From Psychrobacter urativorans (lineage in GTDB: Bacteria > Pseudomonadota > Gammaproteobacteria > Pseudomonadales > Moraxellaceae), in assembly GCF_001298525.1 (NCBI RefSeq), contig NZ_CP012678.1, forward strand, positions 1,922,001 through 1,986,000: DNA of 64,000 bases, in the 5' to 3' direction. How positions within the stretch are numbered: the stretch's first letter is position 1; every line of letters starts with the position of its first letter. Of the stretch, positions 29,280 through 39,928 are shown piece after piece. The notes under the pieces are model-generated. The model ran no database searches. It had not been told where the DNA came from and saw only the letters and a list, made by a program, of their open reading frames with translations. Position numbers and translations under genes: made by a program.

Positions 29280-32200
29280 ATGGAGTTTACCTTTAGCATG
29301 GCATACAAAAAACGCTTTGATACCAGTAGCGCCTATGGTCAGTTGATTATCTTGGTGTTTTTGCCCATTTGTGTGTTGGCGGCGGTCGGTGGTATTTTGG
29401 TGTTTTATGAAACCATGCGTGCCAGTGAGTCGGAGCAGAAAGCCTTGGCAGAAGCGGTATTGATTCGCTATAAACCCATGGTTACTGAGCTGATTCCAGA
29501 ATTACTGGAGCAAGAACGCCAACAATTAAAAGACAATGAAAAAACAGCGAAGCAAATCGTTGGTGGTGTCGCCTCTGTCAGTCAGACAGCACTTGAAACC
29601 AGTATGAATCATGCGCAATTGCCAGTACCGCAAGTGCGCTCTGACCATTATATGGGTGCGCGTGGCGGCAGTTTGAGCAGTGCCGTCCTTTCAGAAGATG
29701 CACTGGGCGGAGTAAAAACACCAACGCCATCGAATGCGGTCATTATTGATGAGAAATTATCTATTGATAGCAATCAGCCCAATCCTAAAATTGCGCCACA
29801 AGGCGCGATGGCAACGCTGGTGGCGATTCGCGATAAGCTCAGTCGTATGCAGTCTGAACAACACGTACAGCGCATTGCCGTGATTAATGAGGATAATCAA
29901 GTATTGGCGACGGTGGGCTATGGTGTGAATGAGGTGTGGCCAATGATAGACACCTCGCAAAACTTTTTATCGCAGCAAGCAACCCCTATTGGAACGGCTT
30001 ATGGTAGTGCCTTGGGCGAATTTGAAGGGCAACGCTTGTGGCTGTTGGTCGATATGGACAATGAGCCGCTCTATATTGCGCGCTATCGTATTGCGATGGC
30101 ATTGGTCATTACGGGTTTATTGACTATTTTAATATTGTTATTGAGTCTCAATATCTACGCTAAGCGTTGGATTGCGCCTATATATGAGCTGCGATTGCAA
30201 TTACAACGTACCCATGTCGATAATTTATATAAGCCCATTCCAGTAGAATCTGATGGCGAGTTGAATTTATTACAACAAGATTTGGTTAAAACGTTACGGC
30301 GCTTACATGGTAGTTTTCAGGAGCTAAAAGATCACGCTGAACAAAGCGAAGATGATTTGCGTTTGGCATTTGATGAAATGGAAATGCAGAATATCTCTAT
30401 CCGTAATTCGCGTGATGCCGCCATTTCAACCAGCCAAGCCAAATCCGCATTTTTAGCCAATATCAGCCATGAATTGCGCACGCCATTGAACAGTATTGAC
30501 GGTTTTATTAATTTGCTGGCGCGTCATGGCGAGCTCAATGCAGAGCAAGACTTGTACGTGCAGACCATTCGTAAATCTTCCGCGCATCTGCTAGCCTTAG
30601 TCAACGATGTGCTTGATTTCTCTAAAATCGAAGCGGGTAAATTATTACTCGACCGCCATGAGTTTGACTTATATGACACCATTTATGATGTTGTTGATAT
30701 GCTCTCGCCGGTGTCGGCAGAAAAAGGCTTGCGCGTCGCAGTATTGTTTTATAACGATGTGCCGATGCGTATCGTTGGCGATGCGCTACGCCTCAAACAA
30801 GTGCTGACCAATATCGTTGGTAATGCCATTAAATTTACCGATACTGGCGATGTGGTGGTACGTGTCAGCTTGGACGATTATCAAGACAATTATCTGATGA
30901 TAAGTGTGCAAGATAGTGGCAAGGGCATTTCTGCTGCCGATCAAAAAATGCTATTCCAAAGCTTTAGCCAAGGCGACCCCTCGATTACCCGTCAATATGG
31001 TGGTAGTGGACTGGGCTTAGTTATTTCTAAACAATTAACCCGCTTGATGGGCGGTGACATTGGTTTTTATGACAATGCGCAAGAGAATATTGCCAATCAA
31101 GGCGCGACCTTTTGGTTTCGGATGCCAACCCATGTCGATGTGCTAGAGGCAGAAACGGGTCAAACCATTCCCTTGCCGGTGTTAGCGCCGCTTGCTAGCC
31201 CGACCGATGAATTTCATGTTTTGGTATGGATTAATCATGCGGCATCACGCCAAGTATTAAAAGCAAGCTTGCAAAATTTGCCTATTCATTTGACCCAAGC
31301 CAATTCTTTACCTGGTGTGCTTGAATCGCTAAAAGAGCGCGGTAATTATTGGGATTGGGTGATTGTCGATAATGATACCCAAGACGACATGATGGCGCTG
31401 CTCAAGCAAATCCGCCTGCATTATCAAGGTAAATTGGCGGTTTTTGGTTATCAAGTTGCCGCTGACCAAGCACTACTCAACCGTTATCACGCTAATATAT
31501 TGTACGAGCCACTCGATAAGCGCCAACTGTATGCCATGCTCGATACGCAAAAGAAAACCGTGCCGGTACAAAACCAAATGCCGCGTTGGCATGGGGTGAC
31601 CGTATTGGCAGTGGATGACCACTTGCCTAATCTGTTAGTTTTGGATGCGCTGCTCAGCGAGTTTGGTGTCAATGTCATCACCGCCAATAGCGGTTTTGAG
31701 GCGATTGAGATGATTAGTAAACAACAAACCAAAAATAATAAAACCTCAAAAACGACGCAGCAAAGCCTCTCTAATAAAACCCAAATTTCTAAAGCAGAAG
31801 CCCGTGCCCAAGTCAGTAAAACCGCGACTAACGCTAATAACGTTAATGTTTCGAGTGGCACAGAGGACAAAAACCGTACCGATGATAAAGACCGCATTGA
31901 CCTGATATTTATGGACATTCAAATGCCGCGTATGTCAGGGCGTGAAGCGGCAGAGCAAATTCGCAATATTGAAAATCCTGAGCATCGTATTCCTATTATT
32001 GCCTTAACCGCGCATGGATTATCGGATGAGCGCGACAAACTGCTTGCCAGTGGTATCGATGATTATGTCGGTAAGCCGATTAGTCAGCCGCAACTGCTAC
32101 AAGTGCTGCAAAAATGGCTGAATCGCCCAGCCACGTCCGAGCGTTATACCGCGCCGAATGCGGTAGTTATGAATACGGATACGCAAACGGTGACCGAAGC

Positions 32201-33029
32201 GCAACCATCATCCCAACCCGCATTACAACATGCATTGGCGCCAGAAACTGCCCCTCACTTGCTGGCTGCACCAAAGTTATTAACCCAAAATCCAGCAGCG
32301 AATAATGCTAATAAGGATTATCGTGCTACCAACGTGCCAACCAGTACAAGAAAGCCTGGTATGCCCAAGGATAATAATATATCGCGCCCGCTTTCTCTCA
32401 AAAAAATTCGTGACAACTATCTACGTGACAGCCAACCGCGTGATGACTATCTGCGTGAACCTCAACGCATCACCCAGCCACGCTATCAAGGATTGCATTA
32501 TCAAGGTCACCCACAAGACCCAGTAACAGATGCGGTATATGCCTCAGTTACTGAGGAAGATAACCCGTTGCTAATGCAACAGTCACAAGAAAGTATATTA
32601 AAAAGTAGCGCTATCGACGACTTAGAAATTTTAGACTGGCAAGATGCTTTAACGCGTTCAGCCAATAAACCAGATTTGGCGGCCACCCTGATAATTATGA
32701 TGCTCGATACCATTGTTAAGGAAAAGGAAGCATTGGCACAAGCATGGCAAGATCGTGACCGTAATGAGCTTAGCCAAATTGCCCATCGTATCTTGGGCGC
32801 GAGCCGTTATACCGGCGTGCCGCAACTGCGCCAAGCCAGTCAAGACTTGGAAGATAAGTGTTTGCTTAACATTCAACATACCACGCCGGCACAATTCGCG
32901 ATGCTCAAGCCTTATTATGAGACGTTATTACTGGCGCTTACCAATTTACAAACGCTTGATTTAACCCCTTATCCAGAGTTGGGCTTTCATCGTCTTAGTG
33001 AAAATGATATGGCATGGAAAATGATTTAA
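29280..33029 (+). CDS. gacS: BarA/GacS-type tripartite hybrid sensor histidine kinase
   Basis: A 1249-residue membrane kinase. TM1 is about residues 22-44, the periplasmic part 45-265, TM2 266-292, then a HAMP region, HisKA with H397 in ANISHELRTPLN, and HATPase_c (NIVGNAIKFTD, DSGKGI, GGSGLGLVIS). A degenerate receiver-like part is followed by a true receiver with D779/D780 and phospho-acceptor D879 in FMDIQMPRM. A C-terminal Hpt carries H1169 in AHRILGASRYTGV. This is the BarA/GacS layout that phosphorylates GacA/UvrY and drives Rsm/Csr small RNAs. The 100-residue gap between D779 and D879, against about 45 normally, reveals a K/S/T/N-rich insert. A second long polar linker precedes Hpt. 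Confidence 0.93.
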   Translation: MEFTFSMAYKKRFDTSSAYGQLIILVFLPICVLAAVGGILVFYETMRASESEQKALAEAVLIRYKPMVTELIPELLEQERQQLKDNEKTAKQIVGGVASVSQTALETSMNHAQLPVPQVRSDHYMGARGGSLSSAVLSEDALGGVKTPTPSNAVIIDEKLSIDSNQPNPKIAPQGAMATLVAIRDKLSRMQSEQHVQRIAVINEDNQVLATVGYGVNEVWPMIDTSQNFLSQQATPIGTAYGSALGEFEGQRLWLLVDMDNEPLYIARYRIAMALVITGLLTILILLLSLNIYAKRWIAPIYELRLQLQRTHVDNLYKPIPVESDGELNLLQQDLVKTLRRLHGSFQELKDHAEQSEDDLRLAFDEMEMQNISIRNSRDAAISTSQAKSAFLANISHELRTPLNSIDGFINLLARHGELNAEQDLYVQTIRKSSAHLLALVNDVLDFSKIEAGKLLLDRHEFDLYDTIYDVVDMLSPVSAEKGLRVAVLFYNDVPMRIVGDALRLKQVLTNIVGNAIKFTDTGDVVVRVSLDDYQDNYLMISVQDSGKGISAADQKMLFQSFSQGDPSITRQYGGSGLGLVISKQLTRLMGGDIGFYDNAQENIANQGATFWFRMPTHVDVLEAETGQTIPLPVLAPLASPTDEFHVLVWINHAASRQVLKASLQNLPIHLTQANSLPGVLESLKERGNYWDWVIVDNDTQDDMMALLKQIRLHYQGKLAVFGYQVAADQALLNRYHANILYEPLDKRQLYAMLDTQKKTVPVQNQMPRWHGVTVLAVDDHLPNLLVLDALLSEFGVNVITANSGFEAIEMISKQQTKNNKTSKTTQQSLSNKTQISKAEARAQVSKTATNANNVNVSSGTEDKNRTDDKDRIDLIFMDIQMPRMSGREAAEQIRNIENPEHRIPIIALTAHGLSDERDKLLASGIDDYVGKPISQPQLLQVLQKWLNRPATSERYTAPNAVVMNTDTQTVTEAQPSSQPALQHALAPETAPHLLAAPKLLTQNPAANNANKDYRATNVPTSTRKPGMPKDNNISRPLSLKKIRDNYLRDSQPRDDYLREPQRITQPRYQGLHYQGHPQDPVTDAVYASVTEEDNPLLMQQSQESILKSSAIDDLEILDWQDALTRSANKPDLAATLIIMMLDTIVKEKEALAQAWQDRDRNELSQIAHRILGASRYTGVPQLRQASQDLEDKCLLNIQHTTPAQFAMLKPYYETLLLALTNLQTLDLTPYPELGFHRLSENDMAWKMI

Positions 33030-34195: not shown

Positions 34196-35455
34196 ATGTC
34201 TGTTCCAAAATCTACCCCGCCGCACCAATCTACCGCCTCAACTCGTGTACGCTCAGCGGAGCTACCTATTGCATGGATTATGATGCTTGGGTTGATTGTT
34301 GCCGTTGGACCGTTATCAATCGATATGTATTTGCCAGCGCTACCGTCAATGGCAAAGGATTTTGGCGTACCGACTGCCTTTATTGCCAACTCAGTTCCCG
34401 CTTATTTTGTGGGTTTGGTGTTTGGGCAATTATTTTATGGACCACTCAGCGATCGGATAGGGCGCGTTAAACCGCTATATTTTGGCATGATTTTATATGT
34501 TATCGCCTCAGTGCTTTGTGCAACCACCAATAATGAATATGTACTCTTTGCAGGGCGTACTTTACAGGCGCTTGGCGCGTGTGTCGGGGCAGTTGTTACG
34601 CGCGCGGCGATTCGGGATCGTCTCACAGCAAGACAGACAGCAAAAGCCTTTTCGATCATGATATTAGTTATGGGCTTAGCGCCCATCTTAGCGCCTTCAC
34701 TGGGGGCGCTATTTTTACAGTTCTTTAGTTGGCATTCTATCTTTTGGTTTTTAGCGGCATTTGGCTTACTCAATTTATTATTAACTAAGTTTTTCTTTTT
34801 TGAAACTCTGACCGAAGAAAATCGTAACGTCCGTCCGGCTAAAGAAGTGCTCAGCCAGTATTGGGACTTATTAAAAGACCCTACGTTCAATTATCCAGCC
34901 ATTGGTGGCGGTCTACTAATGGGCGCGATGTTTGTCTATATCAGCGCCGCTTCTGAGTTAATTATGGATACCTATGGTATGTCATCGACACATTTTGGTT
35001 GGATTTTTGGGATGAATGCTGCAGGATTTGTGGGCTTGACCCAGCTTAATCAGTGGCTTACCAATCGTTTCCGTATCCTTAGTATCTTACGTTTTGGGGC
35101 GATGATGCAGGTCATTGCGTCGGCAGGCTTGTTTATTCTAGGTCTTATTTTCGGCATTGATGCGTGGTTACCATTAGTATTGGTTTGTATTTTCTTCTGT
35201 ATTTCTGGTCTTGGCTTGACGCAGCCAAACTCATCCGCCATTGCACTGGCGTTTCAAAAGCAGCGTGCTGGCATGGCAAGTGCGCTACAAGGCTCGCTGA
35301 TGTTTTCAGTGGGTATTTTTGGCGGCTTATTACTCAATCTCTTCCCTGTTAATCCCGTACTTAAAATTGGTATTACGATGTTTTTGCTGATGAGTCTCGG
35401 CTGTCTGTTAATTTGGCGTATTGATCGGAATCTAAATCTTGATGATGCAGAATAG
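34196..35455 (+). CDS. Bcr/CflA-family multidrug efflux MFS transporter
   Basis: A 419-residue inner-membrane antiporter with 12 predicted helices. The start of helix 1 (GLIVAVGPLSIDMYLPALPS) and the motif A loop GPLSDRIGRVKPLYFGM are diagnostic for the Bcr/CflA drug-resistance branch. ALGACVGAVVTRAAIRD is the conserved helix 4 region. Bcr members export bicyclomycin, sulfonamides or other small molecules, sometimes dipeptides or cysteine. The substrate here is unknown. It is on the same strand as, but terminated separately from, the upstream gene, and no regulator adjoins it. Confidence 0.93.
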   Translation: MSVPKSTPPHQSTASTRVRSAELPIAWIMMLGLIVAVGPLSIDMYLPALPSMAKDFGVPTAFIANSVPAYFVGLVFGQLFYGPLSDRIGRVKPLYFGMILYVIASVLCATTNNEYVLFAGRTLQALGACVGAVVTRAAIRDRLTARQTAKAFSIMILVMGLAPILAPSLGALFLQFFSWHSIFWFLAAFGLLNLLLTKFFFFETLTEENRNVRPAKEVLSQYWDLLKDPTFNYPAIGGGLLMGAMFVYISAASELIMDTYGMSSTHFGWIFGMNAAGFVGLTQLNQWLTNRFRILSILRFGAMMQVIASAGLFILGLIFGIDAWLPLVLVCIFFCISGLGLTQPNSSAIALAFQKQRAGMASALQGSLMFSVGIFGGLLLNLFPVNPVLKIGITMFLLMSLGCLLIWRIDRNLNLDDAE

Positions 35456-35941
35456 CGGAGTACTGCCTACAGATAAGTCGCAGTGGCTATTAAAAAAATG
35501 AAATTTTGTCGTTGCTTTTATCACATCACTTAAGTATTATCTAATGTAAAGTTATGTATTAATTGTACGTTTATTATAAAAATAACATTACTAGAATATA
35601 ACGGAACTCTATTAACGCTATGTCTTCTTGAAGAATAAGCTAATCAGTACTTCTTTAATACCAAAGCAAATATTTTTTCTTATTATTTTTCATATTATCC
35701 TGTCTCTTTACCTAAACACTGCTTAAGCGTTAACAAGGCGCTTGAGCAGTGCTGACTATATTTACTCTTACAAACGACAATAAGACTCAGCCCATACCTT
35801 ACTTAGCTTTAATTGAAAGCCACCATAACGAGTACGATGCGGTTGCTCTTTCTTTCTGTCGATTATAATAACGTTAATACTATCAATAAATTAGGTTTTA
35901 CCACCTCATTTTTATTCTCTAATTGAACAAGGAAGTTAATT
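35456..35941. other. 486-base intergenic region before the CheA-like operon
   Basis: AT-rich, with no convincing frame. The main structure is the hairpin at 35717-35751 described separately. The final part carries AAGGAAG at 35930-35936, the ribosome-binding site of the kinase gene. No clean -35/-10 pair was identified. Confidence 0.4.
35717..35751. other. long inverted repeat upstream of the CheA-like operon
   Basis: CACTGCTTAAGCG and CGCTTGAGCAGTG form a 13-bp stem with one wobble around a 9-base loop. There is no T run after it on either strand, so it is not a standard terminator. It lies about 260 bases after the transporter stop and 190 before the kinase start, so it could be a regulator site, a leader hairpin or a processed 3' end. 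Confidence 0.65.
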
Positions 35942-38164
35942 ATGGATGTGCCGTCAAGGTCGAATTTAGACATCCCTAAAAGTCGTTATACCGCCATTAT
36001 TGTCTCTGTTGTTATTTTCTTATTATTAACCTCAGGGGTTCTAATCACCAGTATTTATAACTCACTTAAAATCCGTGATTTGCGTGCCGGCACAGCGTTA
36101 AGTGCCAACTTACGTAGTGATATTCCACGGCTGACACAAGAGATATATCTACTAAACACTATGCGAGAGCAAAAACAGCTTGCCGCTGAGCTTGCTATTC
36201 AAACGACCAAAGTCAATAAATTGGCTGAATCGATTGATGCTGAGGTGAAAACACTGGTTGATGGTGGTAAAGTTAATATTCGAGACGAAGAAGATGTCTA
36301 TAAGCCCTCACAAAAAGCAGATCAGCTTGAGTATGTGCAAAAGACATCAACGCTATGGGCGCCTTATAAAGCGGCATTAGGGCGATTTGTTATTGCTGAT
36401 ACGTCTTTAAATGCCAGTGCACTTGAAAATGAATTTGGCGATGCAAGCCAAGGTATTTATAATAATGCAACGGGCTTGACCGACAGCTTAAGTGGTGAAA
36501 ACGGGCAACGTGCTTCTTTCTTAAGAAACTTGCAGGTCTTTGGTATCTCATTTGCGATTATCTATTTTATCGTGTTCGTACTGTACTTTGTTCGTCGCCT
36601 AAAAGCTTCGGATGAAGAGCTGATTAGTGCGCGTCGCGAAACGCAAGAGATTATGGAAACCGTTAGTACAGGTTTGTTCTTGCTTGATAAAGACCTCAAT
36701 ATCGGTCAGCAGTACTCAACGGCTTTAACCAAAATTATTGGCTCTGACCGCTTAGGTGGTGAGAACTTTGCCAGCGTTCTACGTGGTCGTATTTCTGATA
36801 AAGACCTCAACACGACGCGCCAGTTCATTGAACAGCTATACAATCCTCGTGTGAAAGAAAAACTGGTTGAATCCCTAAATCCGTTGCATAAAGTGATGCT
36901 TCATGATACCTCTGGTGCTCAAGCGTCAGATAGCCGTTACTTAGACTTTAAGTTCTCACGCGTTTATGAAAATAAAGAAATTGCGCGTATTTTGGTGAAC
37001 GTGAGTGACGTATCGGATGCGGTTTATCTAGAGCAACGCCTAGAGAAAGAAAGTGCGCAAAACGACATGCAAATTGAGATGTTAACCACTATCTTGAACG
37101 TGAATCCAAAAATTATTAATGAATTTATCACGAATACTAAATTGCATATCGATAAGATGAATAATGTCCTAAAAAACCCAGGCAGCTCGCAATATGAGCT
37201 TGAAGGCAAACTTAGTGCTATTTATCGAGAGATGCATAGCCTAAAAGGTGAAGCCTCTGCCCTTAAATTGCACAGCTTTACAACCATTGCATCAGACGCC
37301 GAAGACAAGCTTAATGCGTTACAGAACCAAGGCAAACTTGGTGGTAATGATTTCCTACCCTTAGCCGTCAATCTGGATGAATTATTGAGTCTGTCGAATA
37401 CGATTGAAACCTTAGGTCAGCGTATTAATCAAGCCGCGCCTACTAGCATCTCTAATGTGAAAGCGACTACTGCACCTGTTGATAGAAATGAGTGGGATGA
37501 TTTTAATATTACCGACTCAAGTGTCAATAGTGCTGTAGATAATGCTGTCAGTGCGGATAACGGTTGGGATAGCGGTTTCAATAGTAATATTGATGTTGAG
37601 GATAACTCTGATAGTCATTTACTACCTTATTATCAAGATTTTGCGGCACAAATTGCTGCCAGACAAGGTAAACAAGTAGAGCTTAATATGACGTCGTTAG
37701 CTCATGTTGAGATACCAGTCCACCTTAAAAAAGCGGTTAAAGATATTAGCATTCAGCTATTACGTAATGCCGTCGTGCATGGTATTGAAGATGCTAATAC
37801 CCGTACGGCAGCGGGTAAACCTGCCACGGGTGTGATTGCCTTACAGATGAAGAATGATGGTCAAAACTTTACCATGACTTTAGAAGACGATGGTCAGGGC
37901 ATCAATTTTGATGGTATTCGTGACAAGCTCGTCGCTATGGGTCGTTTCGATGCTGCCGCTGCGCGCAACCTTGATCGTAATGAGCTGTTAAAGCAGTTGT
38001 TCTCGTCAGGCTTCTCAACTCGAGATGTCGCAGATGAAGATGGCGGTCGTGGTGTAGGCTTAGACATTATCAAAGCCCAAGTCAAAGAATACGATGGTAA
38101 GCTCAACGTGAATAGTGAATTTGGTAAAATGACACGTTTCGTCATCACCTTGCCTGCTGCTTAA
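35942..38164 (+). CDS. membrane CheA-like histidine kinase without CheW domain
   Basis: A 740-residue protein. TM1 is about residues 17-38, a periplasmic helical sensor 40-198, TM2 199-219, a PAS-like segment (TQEIMETVSTGLFLLDKD) near 235, an Hpt domain with H432 in MHSLKGEASALKL, a polar linker, then a CheA-class ATPase. That ATPase has the N box with N609 and H613 (LLRNAVVHGIE), G1 EDDGQGI (D649/D650) and G2 GGRGVGLDII. The N-box form and Hpt phosphosite are those of CheA, but the CheY-docking P2 and CheW-like P5 domains are missing and the protein has its own sensor. It should autophosphorylate H432 and pass the phosphate to the receiver encoded 21 bases downstream. Signal and output are unknown. 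Confidence 0.85.
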   Translation: MDVPSRSNLDIPKSRYTAIIVSVVIFLLLTSGVLITSIYNSLKIRDLRAGTALSANLRSDIPRLTQEIYLLNTMREQKQLAAELAIQTTKVNKLAESIDAEVKTLVDGGKVNIRDEEDVYKPSQKADQLEYVQKTSTLWAPYKAALGRFVIADTSLNASALENEFGDASQGIYNNATGLTDSLSGENGQRASFLRNLQVFGISFAIIYFIVFVLYFVRRLKASDEELISARRETQEIMETVSTGLFLLDKDLNIGQQYSTALTKIIGSDRLGGENFASVLRGRISDKDLNTTRQFIEQLYNPRVKEKLVESLNPLHKVMLHDTSGAQASDSRYLDFKFSRVYENKEIARILVNVSDVSDAVYLEQRLEKESAQNDMQIEMLTTILNVNPKIINEFITNTKLHIDKMNNVLKNPGSSQYELEGKLSAIYREMHSLKGEASALKLHSFTTIASDAEDKLNALQNQGKLGGNDFLPLAVNLDELLSLSNTIETLGQRINQAAPTSISNVKATTAPVDRNEWDDFNITDSSVNSAVDNAVSADNGWDSGFNSNIDVEDNSDSHLLPYYQDFAAQIAARQGKQVELNMTSLAHVEIPVHLKKAVKDISIQLLRNAVVHGIEDANTRTAAGKPATGVIALQMKNDGQNFTMTLEDDGQGINFDGIRDKLVAMGRFDAAAARNLDRNELLKQLFSSGFSTRDVADEDGGRGVGLDIIKAQVKEYDGKLNVNSEFGKMTRFVITLPAA

Positions 38165-38184
38165 TTAAGGACAATAAAGAAGCT

Positions 38185-38547
38185 ATGTATAAATTAATGA
38201 TTGTTGATGACTCCAATATTATTCGAAACCGCATCCAACGTGCCTATGACTCAGGAAAATTCCTCTTGGTTGCGACAGCGACCAGTGGTGTTCAAGCGAT
38301 TGAAAAATTTAATATTCATCGCCCTGATGTCATTACCATGGATTTGACCATGCCACAAATGGATGGTCTTGAATGTATCGAAAGAATTATAGCGATTGAC
38401 CCTGATGTGCGCATTTTGGTGGTGTCCGCCTTGTCTGACAAGTCCACTGGTATTGAAGCCTTATCGTTGGGCGCCAGTGGCTTTTTATGCAAGCCTTTTT
38501 CAGAAGAAGAGCTGGTAGAATCCTTGTATGAATTGATGCAAGACTAA
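38185..38547 (+). CDS. stand-alone response-regulator receiver protein (CheY-like)
   Basis: A 120-residue single receiver domain with no output domain. Acidic pair D8/D9 (MIVDDSN), phospho-acceptor D53 in TMDLTMPQMDG, the switch position S81 in VVSALS, and K103 in FLCKPF are all present. It resembles CheY/PatA-type receivers that act by protein contact. It lies 21 bases after the CheA-like kinase, its probable phosphodonor, and is followed by two CheX-type phosphatases, its probable off-switches. The absence of flagellar genes suggests a target other than the flagellar motor, which is inference. Confidence 0.92.
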   Translation: MYKLMIVDDSNIIRNRIQRAYDSGKFLLVATATSGVQAIEKFNIHRPDVITMDLTMPQMDGLECIERIIAIDPDVRILVVSALSDKSTGIEALSLGASGFLCKPFSEEELVESLYELMQD

Positions 38548-38593
38548 TACTATCAGGCGCCTTAAGTAGACACTTTATTAAAGAATAAAAACT

Positions 38594-39043
38594 ATGAAAG
38601 AACAAAAACTACAGATTTTTTTGAATATTATTACCAATTATTTTAAACAGTTTGGCGGTGAAGATCTGGTTGTCGATACCCCTTATTTGTTAGAAAATCA
38701 ACAACCAAAAGTTTATGATTATACTGGTGTGATTGGTATCTCAGGGGTGCAAAAAGGCGTGGTATATTTCACGGCGACACGTGATATATTGTCTCGTATT
38801 CTAGATAGTATGGGTGAACCGGATAAAAGTGAAGATAATTTTGTCGACCTTGCTGGTGAAGTGGCGAATACTATCGCGGGCAATGCTCGTACTGAGTTTG
38901 GTGCAAGTTTTCATATTTCTGTACCATTCGTCTTCAAAGGCTCACCGCAAAGTATTATTTTGCCTAGAGACGAACGCTCATTTATCATTCCCGTCGCATG
39001 GCAAGGTCAAGTCGGCGAAATTGTAGTTTGTTTGCAGAATTAA
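38594..39043 (+). CDS. CheX-type phosphatase, first copy
   Basis: A 149-residue protein of the CheX family, which dephosphorylates CheY-like receivers as a dimer. The signature DLAGEVANTIAGNA contains the E-x-x-N pair (E89, N92) that positions water and Mg2+ for hydrolysis. The fold order DYTGVIGISG, then GVVYFTATRDILSRIL, is typical of CheX. It starts 46 bases after the receiver gene and 40 before the second copy, so it is part of one operon. The partner is presumably the adjacent receiver. Confidence 0.85.
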   Translation: MKEQKLQIFLNIITNYFKQFGGEDLVVDTPYLLENQQPKVYDYTGVIGISGVQKGVVYFTATRDILSRILDSMGEPDKSEDNFVDLAGEVANTIAGNARTEFGASFHISVPFVFKGSPQSIILPRDERSFIIPVAWQGQVGEIVVCLQN

Positions 39044-39083
39044 AGGAAACACTCACAGATGATGAGTATGGACGATAACTATC

Positions 39084-39533
39084 ATGGTTAATGTAGAGAA
39101 ATTAGGCGTGTTTTTAAGCTCAATCAGCTCATTTTTTGCGCAGATTGACAGCACGCCAGTGGCGATTGATACGCCTTATTTGAATAATAATAAAAGTGCA
39201 GTAGGCTACGACTACAGTGGTATTATTAAGATTTCTGGTCCGCTAGAAGGCTGTGTTTATGTCAGCGCTCCTAGTAATATGCTACGTGAATTGATCAAAG
39301 TAATGGGTGAGCCTGACTCATCGATGACGATGATGAAAGATTTACTGGGTGAGATGGCGAATACGATTTCCGGTAATGCTCGTACTGAGTTTGGCACAGA
39401 TTTTGTTATTGCTCCACCAAAGATAGTCGATGGTGTGCCCAGTATCTCTTATTTGCCAAAAGACCGTAATAGCTATATCACACCATTTACTTGGCGTGGC
39501 TATCATGCGGTGATTGGCATTTGTATTGCTTAA
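39084..39533 (+). CDS. CheX-type phosphatase, second (tandem) copy
   Basis: 149 residues, the same length as the preceding gene and clearly its paralogue: both contain a (V/I)DTPYL segment, a YDY(T/S)G(V/I)I strand and a block ending NARTEFG. The catalytic pair is E90/N93 in GEMANTISGNA. Sequence divergence elsewhere is substantial, so the duplication is old. Two copies may form a heterodimer or serve different receivers. The gene closes the operon and is followed by a terminator at 39567. Confidence 0.85.
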   Translation: MVNVEKLGVFLSSISSFFAQIDSTPVAIDTPYLNNNKSAVGYDYSGIIKISGPLEGCVYVSAPSNMLRELIKVMGEPDSSMTMMKDLLGEMANTISGNARTEFGTDFVIAPPKIVDGVPSISYLPKDRNSYITPFTWRGYHAVIGICIA

Positions 39534-39928
39534 TGTATAGCCTAAGTTAAGCTGATTATTCATTATAAAAAAGCGTCGTTAATACGGCGCTTTTTTATGG
39601 TCTATTATATCGTTTAAAAACATAGCCTTTGGCGATGATAAAGGAGTAGAGCTTAATAACGATTTTGTGGTAAAATATAGCGCGACCATTTTTATAGTTT
39701 GTGTTTACACTTCACAGAATTTGCAAGCTGTAGATAATGGCTCAATTTTTTAAACCAACCAATGACACACACATCATGGCAAAAAATTGCTGGGTGTTCC
39801 GCGACTTGATTAATTTGCACTCGTACGTTGTTGCTGTATTAATAAACAGTAACCGTCAGCAAATGCGTGTCGGGGGATAGGCAGTTTTTGTGATGTGGAG
39901 GCATAACCCAACCAACAGGACATCTCTA
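39534..39928 (+). promoter_or_regulatory. rpsB promoter and leader region
   Basis: 395 bases between the second CheX gene and rpsB. After the CheX terminator (39567-39598) an extended -10 (TGGTAAAAT, 39668-39676) could start a leader of about 245 bases. Gammaproteobacterial rpsB leaders are known to bind S2 for autoregulation. The stretch CGTGTCGGGGGATAGGC near 39867-39883 is the only G-rich part and may belong to such a structure. This is inference; no structure was verified. Confidence 0.4.
39567..39598 (+). terminator. rho-independent terminator of the CheA/CheX operon
   Basis: AAAAAAGCGTCG and CGGCGCTTTTTT pair (one T-G wobble) around a short TTAATA loop; the T tract follows directly. 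Confidence 0.88.

Follow-up and report, generated by a model that had tools for sequence, protein, structure and literature searches.

A CheA-like membrane kinase, a lone receiver and two CheX proteins in Psychrobacter: a candidate sensor pathway with apparently exchanged sensor halves

In the CheA chemotaxis kinase, a P4 ATPase serves the phosphoacceptor histidine of an Hpt domain, a separate CheY-like protein acts as receiver, and in Thermotoga and Borrelia the phosphatase CheX dephosphorylates that receiver. Sensor kinases that work with a periplasmic accessory protein are also established, as in the LuxP-LuxQ pair. Here we describe a locus that combines features of these systems, found in a 64,000-nucleotide stretch of the Psychrobacter urativorans genome (assembly GCF_001298525.1, contig NZ_CP012678.1, positions 1,922,001 to 1,986,000 of the forward strand; hereafter the window). 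Four codirectional genes at 35942-39533 encode a membrane histidine kinase, a single-domain receiver and two tandem CheX paralogs, and we consider that, taken as a whole, they are best explained as an autonomous sensor-kinase pathway assembled from CheA and CheX parts, a reading we regard as reasonably probable. The sensor half of the kinase has been replaced in some lineages, with the break at the second transmembrane helix (TM2). We found no description of the operon or of such an exchange in the literature, although subscription journals lay mostly outside our coverage and novelty is accordingly unproven. In one earlier study, 16 Psychrobacter strains are described as carrying cheY and cheX without other chemotaxis or flagellar genes, with cheR in a few (PMC4754876), and the operon offers an explanation for these orphan genes.

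A kinase and two putative phosphatases built from chemotaxis parts

The genes lie on the forward strand and are separated by gaps of 20, 46 and 40 bases: the kinase (740 residues, 35942..38164), the receiver (120 residues, 38185..38547; phosphoacceptor D53), CheX1 (149 residues, 38594..39043; E89-x-x-N92) and CheX2 (149 residues, 39084..39533; E90-x-x-N93). The open reading frames (ORFs), Pfam matches and motifs agree with the first-pass annotation of this DNA, which had proposed a four-gene, single-strand operon with these gaps, H432, D53 and both E-x-x-N motifs. Pfam matches the receiver to Response_reg (E 2e-28) and the CheX proteins to PF13690 above the cut-off (E 2.4e-21 and 2.5e-20). In the kinase, HATPase_c is matched at E 4.6e-13, and the Hpt match, which contains H432 within HSLKGEA, scores 23.6 bits, slightly below the 24.6 cut-off; the same domain is above the cut-off in all eight other kinases of the family that were scanned (26.1-35.7 bits). 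The Pfam scan of the kinase gave no CheW, P2, P3 or HisKA-type match, and the CheW-like P5 domain was not found, as the protein terminates with P4 at residue 740 and the locus has no PF01584 match.

Hydropathy places the first transmembrane helix (TM1) at residues ~16-37 and TM2 at ~196-220. In the AlphaFold2 model (mean pLDDT, the per-residue confidence, 82; pTM, the predicted template modelling score, 0.54), the periplasmic part (37-196) is predicted to form a bundle of four helices, the second and third of them separated by a hairpin. Residues 226-356 are labelled PAS-like from model topology alone, a helical Hpt domain spans ~379-500, and a linker of low confidence (500-553) leads into a CheA P4 ATPase at 555-740. 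CheA P4 chains rank first in both structure-search lists, with ~32% identity to CheA P4 structures. Together with the Pfam and motif results, these matches bear out the earlier proposal of a CheA-class Hpt and ATPase without P2 or CheW.

The kinase thus shares with CheA its phosphoacceptor histidine, P4 ATPase, separate receiver and CheX-type phosphatase, but differs in having its own transmembrane sensor and PAS-like domain, in lacking P3 and P5, and in having no array genes adjacent. According to a survey of CheA, every protein it covered has four core domains, and P2 is treated as auxiliary (PMC10542144); we read these core domains as Hpt, P3, P4 and P5. Because two of these (P3 and P5) are missing, the window kinase, judged by its domain content, is not a CheA. 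Borrelia CheA1 offers a parallel as a chemotaxis-type kinase in a non-chemotaxis role; it resembles other bacterial CheA proteins, however, and the accessible text describes no transmembrane sensor (PMC10703414).

The module is widely conserved. A scan of the genome collection found 501 relatives, and the best 80 were examined: 64 from Psychrobacter, seven from Moraxella, seven from Neisseriaceae (including Alysiella, Conchiformibius and Neisseria dentiae) and two from Cellvibrio. The receiver follows the kinase in 80/80 of these loci, although the kinase is broken in one (L123), and an adjacent CheX is present in 77/80. The three loci without CheX are Neisseriaceae contigs from metagenome-assembled genomes (MAGs), one of which (L144) stops right after the receiver. 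Both CheX genes are present in 66/80, so the conserved gene order for which the first-pass annotation had suggested looking does exist. Among more distant gammaproteobacteria, the kinase-receiver-CheX trio occurs in eight of the ten CheX regions fetched from 72 CheX-bearing genomes (L063 and L064 lack it; in L056, the kinase is split over two ORFs). Alignment shows that H432 and the checked ATP-site residues are invariant in 93/93 kinases and D53 in 95/95 receivers, and that the CheX glutamate is kept in 165/165 rows and the asparagine in 163/165; these counts exclude short pieces and four duplicate loci and retain some near-identical rows. Both asparagine exceptions come from L060, where serine replaces the catalytic asparagine in two of its three CheX proteins.

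A kinase without a dimerization and histidine phosphotransfer (DHp) domain is not expected to possess a receiver phosphatase of its own, which would explain the linked CheX genes, and for this reason we propose CheX1 and CheX2 as the phosphatases of the pathway. Signal input would reach the periplasmic helical bundle and pass through TM2 and the PAS-like domain, controlling phosphorylation of H432 by the CheA-type P4 ATPase; the phosphate would then move from H432 to D53 of the lone receiver, from which CheX1 and CheX2 would strip it. If so, CheA-type chemistry can work as an ordinary transmembrane sensor kinase, with CheX taking over the phosphatase role. Like CheX of Thermotoga and Borrelia, the window proteins match PF13690 above the cut-off, keep E-x-x-N and have a CheY-like partner gene adjacent; they differ in being two tandem paralogs in a genome without FliM.

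The pair of paralogs also invites another reading, that CheX1 and/or CheX2 is the output partner that binds the phosphorylated receiver rather than a phosphatase, with the duplication marking a division of labor. The two are 44% identical over 144 residues, occur together in most loci as noted above, and no other output gene consistently adjoins them. In the CheX tree, a quick tree with several long branches, CheX1 clusters in a clade with Neisseriaceae CheX and CheX2 forms a separate Moraxellaceae clade, and the duplication therefore looks old. Both proteins nevertheless retain the catalytic Glu and Asn, and copies can evidently be lost: three Moraxella loci (L124, L125 and L128) have CheX2 alone, and most modules examined outside Moraxellaceae carry a single CheX. 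We regard an output role as rather improbable and favor the phosphatase assignment. The tight, perhaps dual, signal reset that the first-pass annotation read from the presence of two phosphatases is a conjecture.

Probable exchange of the sensor half

Most relatives of the window kinase have a companion gene. A solute-binding protein (SBP) gene of the SBP_bac_3 type precedes the kinase in 54/62 Psychrobacter loci with upstream DNA, often 12 bases away (L092 and L115 are left out of the 62, as their sequence starts inside the kinase), and in 56/80 relatives overall. The family was assigned by Pfam in L054, L055, L117 and L122 and by BLAST in the remaining loci. Two SBP ORFs are listed at five loci, of which L084 has one split gene, and three at one locus. 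A lipobox-like LxGC is present in 59/59 SBPs longer than 250 residues, whereas a narrower pattern matched 3/59. Alignment to solved relatives shows an Arg and an Asp ligand position kept in 60/60 SBPs, the reference included; we take these residues to be the amino-acid backbone contacts of SBP_bac_3 proteins. In most of the relatives examined, the signal would probably come from an amino-acid-loaded binding lipoprotein. This arrangement is akin to LuxP-LuxQ and to QseG-QseE (PMC12691602) in that a lipoprotein gene lies beside a transmembrane kinase with a helical periplasmic domain; it differs in the SBP_bac_3 amino-acid type of the lipoprotein and in the CheA-type catalytic core.

The window has no such gene, nor do six relatives (L066-L070 and L113), L119 and the degraded L123. 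A search by tblastn of 35401-36000 of the window revealed no SBP gene remnant, and no near relative of the sensor SBPs was found elsewhere in the genome among five SBP_bac_3 genes that pass the cut-off and a single sub-threshold match. These genes are ~21-27% identical to the sensor SBPs over long alignments, and several have transporter-like neighbors, judged by eye. The earlier suggestion that the relay senses a periplasmic signal itself can, at best, apply to loci of the SBP-less type, since most Psychrobacter loci examined have the SBP lipoprotein gene directly upstream.

The sensor half of the window kinase is an alternative type to that of the SBP-bearing loci. Between seven SBP-less and 54 SBP-bearing Psychrobacter kinases, the periplasmic part is on average 13% identical (maximum 19%); the PAS-like part averages 83% identity, Hpt 87% and the ATPase part 67%. 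The highest between-type identity of the periplasmic part (19%) lies below the lowest within-type value (45%). At the DNA level, the window is homologous to SBP-bearing loci up to 35417-35456, where the upstream major facilitator superfamily (MFS) gene ends, and again from 36562-36638, where TM2 ends. The exchanged segment (35455..36600, forward strand, ends approximate) accordingly comprises intergenic DNA and the TM1-periplasmic-TM2 half of the kinase. The corresponding interval of most Psychrobacter loci examined contains an SBP_bac_3 lipoprotein gene and the other type of sensor half.

The two types may have a common origin, as judged by their predicted topology: the same bundle of four helices, with its hairpin after the second, is predicted for both, and because of this they may be remote homologs, perhaps of a PilJ-like bundle. 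The difference could then reflect rapid divergence instead of exchange. We consider this very improbable, because the DNA of L068 matches that of L129 at 91.6% identity downstream of about codon 230, with only 12% protein identity over the periplasmic part, and because a single clade of SBP-less kinase cores is rejected by the approximately unbiased (AU) test (p-AU 1.9e-28; 33 rows chosen from 66). L067 and L079 repeat the pattern, at 85%. In the kinase-core trees, the SBP-less type requires four or five changes, at least three of them forced by starred branches.

Among SBP-bearing loci, the lipoprotein and the sensor half diverge together. Across 49 such loci, SBP identity tracks sensor-half identity with r 0.90, and the partial correlation given the flanks is 0.87; for the other segments, the partial values are -0.14 (next kinase segment), 0.05 (MFS gene), -0.04 (receiver) and at most 0.15 elsewhere. 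Given the ATPase part, the sensor half remains at 0.88, and other segments range from -0.08 to 0.21. With 52 loci (L117 left out), the statistic is 0.88 and was reached in 0/2000 permutations. Segments about equally close do not track the SBP, unlike the sensor half. The kinases of L082 and L111 illustrate the point, as their cores are identical to two decimals, while their SBPs are 43% and their sensor halves 51% identical.

Taken together, it appears fairly likely that sensor cassettes, comprising either an SBP with the TM1-periplasm-TM2 half or a lipoprotein-free version, are swapped between strains through recombination events that have their endpoint at TM2. We infer from the sequences that exchange occurs on a fixed, array-free core of Hpt/P4, receiver and CheX. 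A single conserved output would then be rewired to different extracellular signals, and natural allele pairs with near-identical cores and differing sensor halves are well suited to tests of the SBP-kinase link and of signaling through TM2.

The affinities of the sensor halves themselves are less distinct. PF13675 is above the cut-off in two of eight scanned family kinases (L058 and L142) and slightly below it in L059, a likeness to PilJ-type sensors such as McpN (PMC6381276), but the window sensor half has no PF13675 match. When the sensor half from one SBP-bearing relative was used for a structure search, no match reached E <=0.001; the best match was 8bsb (the Vc1313 ligand-binding domain), above that value, and NarQ fragments rank below it with unrelated helical proteins in between.

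Flagellar and pilus context

The pathway occurs in a genus without the flagellar switch. FliM is absent from the window genome and is present in 0/105 same-genus genomes and in 14/299 family genomes, consistent with the earlier description of a compact membrane relay in a non-flagellated genus. CheX is present in 109/299 family genomes (by Pfam match, with the module unchecked per genome), in 84/105 same-genus genomes by hand count from lists, and CheW in 276/299. The first-pass annotation had described the relay as lacking any chemotaxis gene. For the neighborhood this holds, as no che or fli gene was recognized among the ORFs adjoining the operon; for the genome it fails, since a Pil-Chp-like cluster (L152, G000:C1:1036500-1056000) lies ~0.9 Mb from the operon. 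It encodes two receivers, a CheW protein, a methyl-accepting chemotaxis protein (MCP), CheR and a 2444-residue ChpA-like kinase; the Pil names are our presumption from gene order.

This cluster raises the possibility that the receiver feeds the Pil-Chp array as an accessory input to type IV pilus chemosensing, with CheX also trimming phosphate from PilG/PilH. Within the 299 family genomes, CheW is present in 109/109 that carry CheX, and CheX in 0/23 that lack CheW. This co-occurrence suggested full dependence on Pil-Chp, an idea contradicted in Neisseriaceae, where CheW is found in 0/7 genomes with kinase and receiver (4/7 with adjacent CheX; some are small MAGs of unstated completeness). The receiver, moreover, is just 24-32% identical to three Pil-Chp receivers, and Pfam detects no CheW-like domain in the kinase. 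A Pil-Chp branch therefore seems unlikely to us.

In the autonomous pathway that we prefer, the receiver would act by binding a distant target, possibly the machinery of type IV pili or surface behavior. The pilus is a tentative guess, prompted by high-scoring PilT matches in 82/84 Psychrobacter genomes with CheX versus 12/21 without it. Here, "high-scoring" denotes a best E <1e-145, a threshold chosen after seeing the data; of the two genomes that have CheX but no such match, G260 is 89% complete and G266 85%. The Fisher tests of CheX association use hand counts from lists and ignore shared ancestry.

Several points weigh against this account. The genome of the window lacks an SBP of the sensor type, and for that reason the SBP part of the explanation concerns the relatives. 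Linkage of the adjacent SBP and sensor half may add to their co-divergence. CheX-bearing family genomes are not confined to non-flagellated hosts: seven of the 109 (G002, G003, G005, G018, G021, G030 and G032), from other Moraxellaceae genera, have FliM, and their CheX matches are weaker or more distant. The correlation with the pilus is confounded by clade and uses a post hoc threshold, and Pil-Chp is not required, because all seven Neisseriaceae genomes do without CheW. Finally, no conserved output gene was recognized beside the module across families.

Individual loci do carry possible partners. In L060, two kinase-receiver-CheX modules are each followed by a protein of ~300 residues (291 and 312, alike by eye), one with a winged-helix match below the cut-off and the other without a match, which may be an adjacent output. 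At L059:9113-10354, Pfam identifies, immediately after CheX, a fusion protein that combines a receiver and a Ser/Thr protein kinase, and the protein next to the module of L057 has a TonB C-terminal domain.

Flanking features and variant loci

Some loci depart from the common arrangement. A Moraxella MAG (L127:6857-14976) has two successive kinase-receiver modules, the first preceded by a gene for a Peripla_BP_4 protein in the SBP position. The locus of Psychrobacter sp. TAE2020 (L123) is degraded, with the kinase fragmented and CheX2 not found.

In the window, 486 bases separate the kinase from the upstream gene, which we take to encode the MFS protein, and hold no ORF of >=90 residues. A promoter scan found 13 sites against 12.7 expected, which is chance level. 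The terminator scan found eight sites against 3.8 expected, and by far the longest is an 18-pair terminator-like stem-loop at 39562..39601 (forward strand), after the operon and before a gene that is presumably rpsB, followed by a presumptive tsf. Further upstream, a 1249-residue ORF at 29280-33029 resembles a hybrid sensor kinase on visual inspection, which we assume to be BarA-like, and its relatives are similarly placed in many Psychrobacter loci.

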